In this document: positions 178-25,081 of the stretch, one piece after another | Layout: every line of letters starts with the position of its first letter | How positions within the stretch are numbered: the first letter of the stretch is position 1 | Virus record (IMG/VR): IMGVR_UViG_3300042557_000657 | Coordinates: 1 to 25,125 of that record | Length of the DNA stretch: 25,125 nucleotides | Source of the DNA: a virus | Direction: 5' to 3' (one strand) | The notes under the pieces: generated by a model | What the model saw: the letters and a program-made list of their open reading frames with translations, nothing else | Told to the model about the DNA's origin: nothing | The model's database searches: none | Position numbers and translations under genes: made by a program

Positions 178-1239
178 TTAGATAACCTCGAATTTCAATA
201 GGCCGTTTACACCTTCCATGCGGTCGCCCACTTGGAACATATCGTTAGGCAAGAAAGCAGTGTCGAAGTTCAAAGCTAAACCGAAGTTCCACTGGCGGCT
301 GCTGCCTGAACAAGCATATTCAGCGTAGTAGTCAAACATGATAGGAAGTTCGGGGTGCATAATAACGCCTTGTTTAAGTGCGTTGTCGTCAATTACCCGT
401 GGGTTTCCGTCAGCACCTGCGAACTCGTTGAAGGACAACAACTGAATTGAACCTGGCATCATACCAAGGAAAAACTCTTTACCACCCAAAGCTGTAGCCA
501 TTTTGCGGCTGTAGCCATAGTTGATTCCAGCGTTTTGACGTAGGATTTCAGGTTGTACGCCAAGGTCGTTGTCGCTTGTGGAGGCTTGAAGCGCGTTGGC
601 ATATTTCCAAACGTCTTCTCCGCCTAAAGCAACGATAGGGCCGTTGTACTCGTTGGCGGTGAACTCATACTTCACGACATTGGAAAGGTCGTAAGAGATA
701 GTTCCGTTGGTGTTGAAAGCAGTACCTTGCTTCAATGGTGAAGTACCAGCAGGGTTACCAGCATCCACGTCCGAAGCGAAGAAACCAAGGTTAAGTGCGA
801 TTTGCGCAGCCACGTAGGTTTCGGCGCGCTCCAAAAGCACGTTCATGTTCTTGAGGATTTGGCGCGCTATGTAGTCTTGGTCAGCCTCACAACGCTCTTC
901 CAAGGTTTGCATATCCACACTCCACTTGATGTTGAAACCATCTGAAGGTGCTACGTCATAAGTTTTGGAAAGTTCGCCGGAAGTGCTACCACCACCACAA
1001 ACGATACGTCCACCGCTATCCACGATAGACTCCAAGAAACGCTGCTCATAGATAACTTCTACGGCGCGGCGTTTGCCATTGTTAGACACGATGCGCTGAA
1101 TGGTATCGCGGCGGTTGATTTCGGACAACAACACCTGCATAAGGGTTGTTTGGTCGGCCCTAAGGTTGTTATAGGCCCATGCGGATGCCAGTGATTCTTG
1201 CACTGCATTACACGCAATTAAAGTAGATGCGTATGACAT
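178..1239 (-). CDS. Major capsid protein
   Basis: A 353-residue protein starting MSYASTLIACNAVQ. It would form the icosahedral head shell. The call rests on its length, its even soluble composition, its place directly downstream of portal and scaffold genes, and its own strong promoter and terminator, as expected for the most abundant virion protein. I recognise the general look of a Bacteroidota-phage capsid but no named motif. The start is chosen at ATG 1239, preceded by an A/T-rich stretch; an in-frame ATG at 1296, still inside the likely transcript, would add 19 residues (MAVATAPKYAIRKILNSKS). The frame stays open to 1368, but that part lies upstream of the promoter. A different abundant head protein is possible but less likely. 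Confidence 0.78.
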   Translation of the reverse strand: MSYASTLIACNAVQESLASAWAYNNLRADQTTLMQVLLSEINRRDTIQRIVSNNGKRRAVEVIYEQRFLESIVDSGGRIVCGGGSTSGELSKTYDVAPSDGFNIKWSVDMQTLEERCEADQDYIARQILKNMNVLLERAETYVAAQIALNLGFFASDVDAGNPAGTSPLKQGTAFNTNGTISYDLSNVVKYEFTANEYNGPIVALGGEDVWKYANALQASTSDNDLGVQPEILRQNAGINYGYSRKMATALGGKEFFLGMMPGSIQLLSFNEFAGADGNPRVIDDNALKQGVIMHPELPIMFDYYAEYACSGSSRQWNFGLALNFDTAFLPNDMFQVGDRMEGVNGLLKFEVI

Positions 1240-1267: not shown

Positions 1268-1323
1268 GCGTACTTGGGTGCGGTCGCCACCGCCATGCGT
1301 ATTTGGGCGCGGTCGCCACCGCC
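1268..1323 (-). repeat. Tandem 27-bp direct repeat forming two hairpins in the capsid leader
   Basis: Two copies of a 27-bp unit (1268-1294 and 1297-1323) differ at two positions and are separated by two bases. Each contains GCGGT-GGCG-ACCGC as read on the transcript, a 5-bp GC-rich stem with a 4-base loop. They lie between the capsid promoter and the capsid ATG. The copies are offset by 29 bases, not a multiple of three, so they do not encode the same peptide twice. Confidence 0.75.
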
Positions 1324-1327
1324 GCTA

Positions 1328-1356
1328 CAAATATAGTTAAAAAATGTTAAATCCAA
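1328..1356 (-). promoter_or_regulatory. Promoter of the major capsid gene
   Basis: On the minus strand: TTG (1356-1354), 18 bases, then TATATTTG (1335-1328). This fits the Bacteroidota vegetative pattern TTG-N-TAnnTTTG. It starts ten bases after the T-run of the previous terminator, and transcription should begin near 1320, giving a leader of about 80 bases. The spacer holds one of the five TTAA-N6-TTAA elements (1337-1350). Confidence 0.75.
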
Positions 1357-1366
1357 GTTTAGGTGC

Positions 1367-1392
1367 AAAAAAAAGCCTCCGGTTAGGGAGGC
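1367..1392 (-). terminator. Rho-independent terminator after the small gene 1417-1740
   Basis: Minus-strand hairpin GCCTCC-CTAACC-GGAGGC followed by eight T. It uses the same GCCTCC/GGAGGC stem as the terminator at 1820-1841, with a different loop. Confidence 0.88.
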
Positions 1393-1416
1393 TTGGTAAA
1401 GGTTGGGTGTGTTGGG

Positions 1417-1740
1417 TTAATTTTGATATTCAATGTCTGAAAGAAATTCAATGATTTCTTTTTTAGCTTGATTCCAATTTGTAACGCCCCAAATTTGTTT
1501 TTGAATAAATACAGCTTCGCGTGTTTCAACTTCAAAATAGCTATTCATGTTGCTTCCAGATGCTGGCACATTAACTAATGAAAGGTTGTGCATATCGTTG
1601 CTATCATTTCTTGAGTGATTTCTTGAATGATTTTTGTTCATTCTAAATTTCACATCCATACCCATATAATCAACTTTAAGATATTCGTGTCCGAAGGTGT
1701 AGGCTTCTTTGGCTGTTTTTAGAATTTCTTGAACTGTCAT
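1417..1740 (-). CDS. Small hypothetical protein between scaffold and capsid (moron-like)
   Basis: A 107-residue protein (starts MTVQEILKTAKEAYTF) with an N-terminal helix, a middle stretch rich in Asn, Ser, His and Arg with a short HSRN repeat (about residues 42-49), and a C-terminal part ending WNQAKKEIIEFLSDIEYQN. I do not recognise a family. The start is ATG 1740; TTG at 1764 lies within the -7 box and would precede the expected transcript start. The gene is visibly richer in A/T than the neighbouring head genes and is bracketed by its own promoter with a palindrome and its own terminator, so it looks like an independently expressed insertion between scaffold and capsid. Role unknown; a regulatory or host-directed protein would fit better than a virion part. 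Confidence 0.6.
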   Translation of the reverse strand: MTVQEILKTAKEAYTFGHEYLKVDYMGMDVKFRMNKNHSRNHSRNDSNDMHNLSLVNVPASGSNMNSYFEVETREAVFIQKQIWGVTNWNQAKKEIIEFLSDIEYQN

Positions 1741-1761
1741 GGCTGCTGCGTTTTGATATGT

Positions 1762-1791
1762 CAAAGGTACAGCGATTGTAACATTTTACAA
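1762..1791 (-). promoter_or_regulatory. Promoter of gene 1417-1740
   Basis: On the minus strand: TTG (1791-1789), 19 bases, then TACCTTTG (1769-1762), matching the Bacteroidota -33/-7 pattern. Transcription should start near 1756, about 15 bases before ATG 1740. Confidence 0.72.
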
Positions 1792-1792
1792 T
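1775..1792. promoter_or_regulatory. Perfect palindrome inside the promoter, operator candidate
   Basis: ATTGTAA-CATT-TTACAAT is a perfect 7-bp inverted repeat with a 4-base spacer (18 bp in total). It covers the -33 TTG and most of the spacer of the promoter of 1417-1740, where a dimeric repressor would block polymerase. Confidence 0.5.
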
Positions 1793-1819
1793 ACCCTAAA
1801 AGTTAAAAAGTGTTAAAAC

Positions 1820-1841
1820 AAAAAAGCCTCCCGAAGGAGGC
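1820..1841 (-). terminator. Rho-independent terminator after the scaffold gene
   Basis: Minus-strand hairpin GCCTCC-TTCG-GGAGGC followed by six T, 20 bases after the scaffold stop. A TTAA-N6-TTAA element (1803-1816) follows it. Confidence 0.88.
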
Positions 1842-1860
1842 TGTAAAATATGGCATAGGT

Positions 1861-24933: not shown

Positions 24934-24989
24934 GGTATCGCGCAGGTGCAGTGTATCGCGTGTATTTCATGGTTTGCGTTTTTAAAAAG

Positions 24990-25081
24990 TAGTCAGGACA
25001 GGACTCGAACCTGTAGACAAGGCATCTCACCTATATGGGCTGGCGTTGCTACCATGCGTTTACCAATTTCGCCACCTGACT
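24990..25081 (-). tRNA. Class II tRNA-like gene (Leu-like body), anticodon uncertain
   Basis: Minus-strand 92-base cloverleaf: 7-bp acceptor AGTCAGG/CCTGACT, D arm GCG-AAATTGGTAAA-CGC, T arm ACAGG-TTCGAGT-CCTGT, discriminator A, no encoded CCA. The long variable arm (AGGT-GAGAT-GCCT) and D loop point to tRNA-Leu. The anticodon arm is abnormal: the best fold is TGG[TA]GC with GCCCA, a 5-bp stem with two extra bases, closing a 7-base loop AACGCCA without U33. Another fold puts CAA in an 8-base loop. It may be a degenerate tRNA. Confidence 0.7.

Follow-up and report, generated by a model that had tools for sequence, protein, structure and literature searches.

The major capsid gene of an uncultured phage appears to have a dedicated mRNA, whose 5′ end, judging by sequence comparison, very probably folds into two tandem H-type pseudoknots. 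The window, by which we mean the whole stretch of DNA analysed, comprises 25,125 nucleotides (positions 1 to 25,125 of IMG/VR record IMGVR_UViG_3300042557_000657). Computation gives the position of the array, the promoter-like box before it and the start codon after it, and comparison among relatives gives its structure. The array quite probably has a cis-acting role in capsid expression. We also lean, with less assurance, towards the view that it exemplifies a tandem-pseudoknot leader of a capsid family, conserved in shape and not in letters, that would control capsid synthesis in cis whatever the identity of its partner. The capsid protein is among the most abundant products of a phage.

The Capsid Locus

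The features of the locus are listed in Table 1. On the minus strand, the terminator is followed by TTG, an 18-nt spacer, TATATTTG, the two repeats and the capsid gene. A sequence-only reading of this DNA had proposed a dedicated capsid promoter, and all of its parts are found on the minus strand, placed after the terminator. In Bacteroidetes, the consensus of the -7 element is TAnnTTTG, while in Flavobacterium a -33 motif was not identified (PMC7366714). TATATTTG agrees with the TAnnTTTG pattern of the sigma-ABfr promoter; the -33 position differs from the expected TTTG in the window (CTTG) and agrees with it in two close relatives, L004 and L005.

Table 1. Features of the capsid locus in the window
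Feature	Position	Strand	Basis or remark
Intrinsic terminator, AAGCCTCCCTAACCGGAGGCTT followed by a T-run	1373..1394	minus	closes the upstream transcript; also present in L004/L005
TTG, candidate -33 element	1354..1356	minus	CTTG in the window; TTTG in L004/L005, offset by one base
TATATTTG, -7 box of the Bacteroidetes type TAnnTTTG	1328..1335	minus	comparison of the window with L004/L005; consensus from PMC7366714
Pseudoknot 1 (predicted)	1297..1322	minus	fold in the window and comparison with relatives
Pseudoknot 2 (predicted)	1268..1293	minus	fold in the window and comparison with L004/L005
A/U-rich unstructured linker, 28 nt, up to the start codon	1240..1267	minus	sequence and folding
Major capsid protein, 353 aa, HK97 fold (modelled), start ATG 1239-1237	178..1239	minus	homologue alignment (start); structure model (fold)

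No profile library names the capsid gene product. An AlphaFold2 model built from 29 relatives has a pLDDT of 82.5, compared to 29.8 when built from 3 sequences. It matches phage HK97-fold capsids and encapsulins (Foldseek E-values down to 6.3e-8), with Z up to 17.0 and 3.9 A over 261 residues in structural alignment. As modelled, the gene is that of an HK97-fold major capsid protein. A portal gene nearby is recognised by PHROGs. Named phages gave no DNA or protein match to the window. The only match in the host-genome collection (L182) is distant and lies in a MAG labelled Rickettsiales. The promoter-like box of L182, TACATTTG, looks Bacteroidetes-like despite this label, and either mis-binning or an unexpected host is possible.

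Several other features of these genomes may be mentioned here. Window positions 1417-1850 (minus strand) carry a 115-aa ORF that is missing from the same site in L004 and L005. It is flanked by two similar terminators (1842-1825 and 1394-1373), and after the first of these comes TTTAACACTTTTTAAC, which is similar to the capsid promoter region. The whole looks like a moron-type inserted cassette. Whereas the capsid leader spans 83 nt, TAACTTTG boxes in L006 (168-220) and L008 (6303-6360) stand only about 6 nt before an ATG, so that transcripts from them would be almost leaderless. At 24989-25081 (minus strand) lies a tRNA-like gene whose variable region is long and to which no anticodon is assigned.

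Are the repeats translated? In L005, AAG replaces ATG 1296; in both L004 and L005, a 1-nt deletion before ATG 1239 breaks the frame from ATG 1296; and the alignment of capsid homologues at 43-47% identity begins at M1239. The repeats are therefore an untranslated leader. On this comparative evidence we consider the start of translation settled at ATG 1239, with ATG 1296 not conserved, and the distance from the pseudoknots to the start is 83 nt in the window. The suggestion that the repeats set the choice between ATG 1296 and ATG 1239 thus falls, since the former is missing from one relative and not in frame in two. A repeated peptide, already discounted in the earlier reading from the 29-nt offset, is out given that offset and the homologue starts.

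Fold and Conservation of the Repeat Units

The direct repeats lie at 1267-1294 and 1296-1323 (minus strand); they are 28 nt each, 93% identical and 29 nt apart. Their core, GCGGTGGCGACCGC, occurs at these two sites only in the window, where 0.23 matches would be expected within 2 mismatches. The sequence-only reading had described near-identical 27-bp units, each folding as GCGGT-GGCG-ACCGC. The near-identity, the place and the hairpin stem are all real, but the unit is 28 nt long and continues past the hairpin to a 3′ CGC. Pairing is possible between this CGC and the hairpin loop (GGCG), which makes the predicted element an H-type pseudoknot and not a plain hairpin: (GCGGU)g[GCG](ACCGC)-A-rich loop-[CGC]. 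The second strand of S2 closes the repeat, which accounts for the unit length of 28 nt. In pseudoknot 1, S1 joins 1322-1318 with 1313-1309 and S2 joins 1316-1314 with 1299-1297, with L3 at 1308-1300 (gcccaaata). In pseudoknot 2, S1 joins 1293-1289 with 1284-1280 and S2 joins 1287-1285 with 1270-1268, with L3 at 1279-1271 (acccaagta). In this lineage, one pseudoknot unit does seem to have been duplicated, given how nearly identical the two copies are.

S2 has only 3 bp in the window and is invariant among close relatives, which leaves homology as the basis for the pseudoknot in the window itself. The two copies can alternatively pair together in a nested fold of greater stability, and nested folding of the leaders gave no unusual stability (no z-score beyond -1.9). 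With a strict finder, the coding strand of the window has the capsid leader as its sole array; the other strand shows one chance-like array, and L020 likewise shows one further array.

L004 and L005 have capsids 97% identical to that of the window and keep the leader. Fourfold-degenerate capsid sites differ from the window by 33-36% in the two relatives (36% in L004), while both pseudoknots are unchanged in L004 except for one loop. In the -7 box with the bases immediately ahead of it, and in both units, the window and the two relatives differ solely in one loop and the lost ATG. The loop is L3 of pseudoknot 2, which is altered and one base longer in L004/L005; the CGC after it is kept. Because the pseudoknots are almost unchanged while the fourfold sites diverge to this extent, the leader is, judging from these sequences, conserved beyond drift.

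Leaders of Divergent Capsid Relatives

We gathered about a hundred relatives by portal search and capsid-profile searches. Capsid relatives at 20-47% identity mostly share the leader plan, i.e., tandem pseudoknots before the capsid gene (two to three in relatives, two in the window). Most of their leaders do not have the letters of the window: each unit has a hairpin, an A-rich stretch and then bases pairing with the hairpin loop. Examples are (GGUC)c[UGGUCA](GACC)aaaaa[UGACCA] in L126, (AGGU)[UGCCU](ACCU)aaua[AGGCA] in L147 and (UCGGC)[UGCGCU](GCCGA)accaaaau[GGCGCA] in L149, compared to (GCGGU)g[GCG](ACCGC)gcccaaaua[CGC] in L177 and the window. Stems and loops are nearly free in sequence among the leaders. 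The 75 tandem units found in 28 leaders have 45 distinct S1 and 50 distinct S2 sequences and a pitch of 28.8±3.1 nt; their L3 is 69% A, in a search that itself included an A-content filter. Where the upstream gene differs, the array still accompanies the capsid gene, as in the window with its extra 115-aa ORF, and in the L149 group the DNA upstream of the array reads, by eye, as a divergent gene.

The surroundings of the array fall into two groups. A TAnnTTTG box stands a few nucleotides before pseudoknot 1 in 23 of 72 leaders, including that of the window. In the group formed by the window and L149-L179, nearly all members have this box and no terminator follows the array; in such promoter-type leaders, pseudoknot 1 begins about 5 nt after the -7 box. 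A terminator between array and capsid gene was looked for in the window-type leader of L179 and none was present, the one found there preceding the promoter. In many leaders of the second group (L069-L147), the array ends in a hairpin resembling an intrinsic terminator, whose 5′ arm overlaps the last pseudoknot. Some of these leaders also have a promoter box; many have none, and their pseudoknot 1 lies a few nucleotides after the scaffold stop codon. By a strict rule, the last pseudoknot overlaps the terminator arm in 29 of 72 leaders; for one of them, L110, the terminator search probably hit the upstream gene by chance. Since both elements share a strand, pseudoknot and terminator should be mutually exclusive in the second group.

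The capsid homologues of L144, L145, L146 and L182 appear to have an extra N-terminal hydrophobic, signal-peptide-like stretch (e.g., MKKIISLFGKVTAVLFVSLLSATLLTALAG in L182). In L144 and L182, pseudoknot-like units precede this stretch.

Covariation and Controls

Tandem units were found in 67% of 36 divergent leaders, compared to 1.2% of dinucleotide shuffles and 4.4% of capsid-coding pieces given equal search freedom; about one third of these leaders were not scored as tandem by the strict finder. With S1 as the sole anchor and 19 loop classes, S2 pairing had a mean of -6.85, against -2.66±0.54 after partner swap (0/2000). An unanchored swap test, in which all hairpins were picked blind to S2, gave 0/300, and hairpins from coding DNA gave no signal; related sequences in these tests are not independent of one another. 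Two structure-blind MAFFT alignments, one with 19 sequences and one with 13 distinct sequences, have 88.5% and 98.3% of their cells paired and 10 and 3 pairs, respectively, changed on both sides, in counts that leave out alignments A8 (ten more divergent leaders) and A11 (the L074 group). Slid partners pair far worse than true partners in both. One S2 helix in alignment A7 is just 59% paired, the blind alignment misregistering it.

The controls thus comprised shuffles, strand swaps, slid partners and coding DNA. The finder by itself is not specific: permissive settings yield chance arrays elsewhere in other genomes. The claim therefore depends on leaders in homologous positions. Folding and covariation in related phages had been put forward as the check on the hairpins, and of the two it is covariation that came through, the nested-fold z-scores being modest. 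The earlier view that selection acts on RNA structure and not on a peptide agrees with these data, as the structure is kept in relatives with different stem letters and with compensatory changes. G-U pairs are tolerated in the aligned stems, which favours RNA over DNA.

Comparison with Known Leaders

The closest known tandem pseudoknot is the STAXI motif (Rfam RF01728), an element of unknown function in which two or three copies of a pseudoknot follow one another (PMC2864571). The present array likewise has at least two tandem pseudoknots. However, STAXI adjoins genes for DNA handling (ssb, integrase, topoisomerase or antirestriction) and not an HK97-fold capsid gene, and it frequently has UUCG tetraloops, whereas the loops here are variable (GGCG in the window). 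The STAXI covariance model matched none of nine phage records at E <= 10, window included, and gave nothing at the gathering threshold in the window. Rfam searches matched no family, with only sub-threshold, chance-like hits.

In anatomy, the closest leader is that of T4 gene 32, with a pseudoknot 67 nt upstream of the start followed by an A/U-rich unstructured linker (PMC3014915). The window also has a pseudoknot leader, 83 nt from the start, and an A/U-rich linker. The T4 leader has one pseudoknot before an SSB gene, in contrast to two or three before an HK97-fold capsid gene, and the gene 32 product binds its own leader and represses translation. A likeness to attenuators with mutually exclusive hairpins is seen in L126, L147 and L074, where the last pseudoknot shares a strand with a terminator-like hairpin. 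The alternative structure here differs in being a pseudoknot within an array with no known ligand, and the leader of the window has no terminator. In the open-access literature, most subscription papers lying outside it, we found neither a leader of this sort nor any description of leader-RNA control of a tailed-phage capsid gene.

Possible Function

What might the array do? We favour feedback-type control of capsid synthesis, with protection of the mRNA 5′ end close behind. A scheme like that of T4 gene 32 is preferred because the array belongs with a single gene and accompanies it through changes of neighbours. In this scheme, a protein accumulating in head assembly (capsid, scaffold or a host factor) would recognise the tandem pseudoknots and their A-rich loops by shape. 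Its target in the window would be translation or the lifetime of the mRNA, reached across the 28-nt linker; where relatives have a terminator, the partner would favour or disfavour the last pseudoknot over the terminator hairpin. The nearly free sequence of stems and loops argues against a partner that reads sequence. Protein-responsive control of any sort is a tentative reading, to which we give somewhat less than even chances.

The main rival is a passive one, in which pseudoknots with no partner form the very 5′ end of a plentiful late mRNA, where they block 5′-end-dependent decay or exonucleases and so raise capsid output. Such a shield is possible, if on balance doubtful. The start of pseudoknot 1 so soon after the -7 box in promoter-type leaders is in its favour, and sequence-free stems are what a mechanical role would lead one to expect. 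However, it fits poorly with the many second-group leaders that have no promoter box and begin the array just past the scaffold stop codon, it leaves the terminator overlap unexplained, and in the window and two relatives only a single gene has the array before it.

An array that acts on RNA polymerase during transcription and allows passage of terminators seems to us improbable. HK022 put RNA is a nascent-RNA antiterminator acting on polymerase, and the eps-associated RNA offers a similar model. The terminator-like hairpin between array and capsid gene in many relatives would suit this mechanism, but no terminator stands at that place in the window or the L149 group. It is very unlikely that the inverted repeats are a DNA operator binding a repressor or activator at the capsid promoter: they are short and directly downstream of the -7 box, as an operator might be, yet their letters differ between relatives while pairing persists, the conserved pairing crosses (S2) in a way that an operator does not need, G-U pairs are tolerated and some arrays have no adjacent promoter box. 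Functionless, neutral tandem duplication of a 29-nt stretch, to which the near-identity of the two window copies might point, deserves almost no credence and is refuted for the array as a whole by the almost unchanged elements against 33-36% fourfold divergence and by tandem structure in other letters in divergent relatives.

Returning to feedback-type control, it is tempting to hypothesize that the leader is a capsid-mRNA sensor, in which two to three tandem pseudoknots of nearly free sequence would gauge the supply of head proteins and switch capsid synthesis; some lineages would do so by attenuation, others through translation or decay. We regard this specific form as possible but rather unlikely. 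If this is true, the leader RNA would be read by its shape alone, something apparently unreported. Tandem pseudoknots with nearly free stems recur in about a hundred uncultured phage contigs, which makes shape recognition or a mechanical role directly testable. RNA families of this kind also escape sequence-based and nested covariance models.
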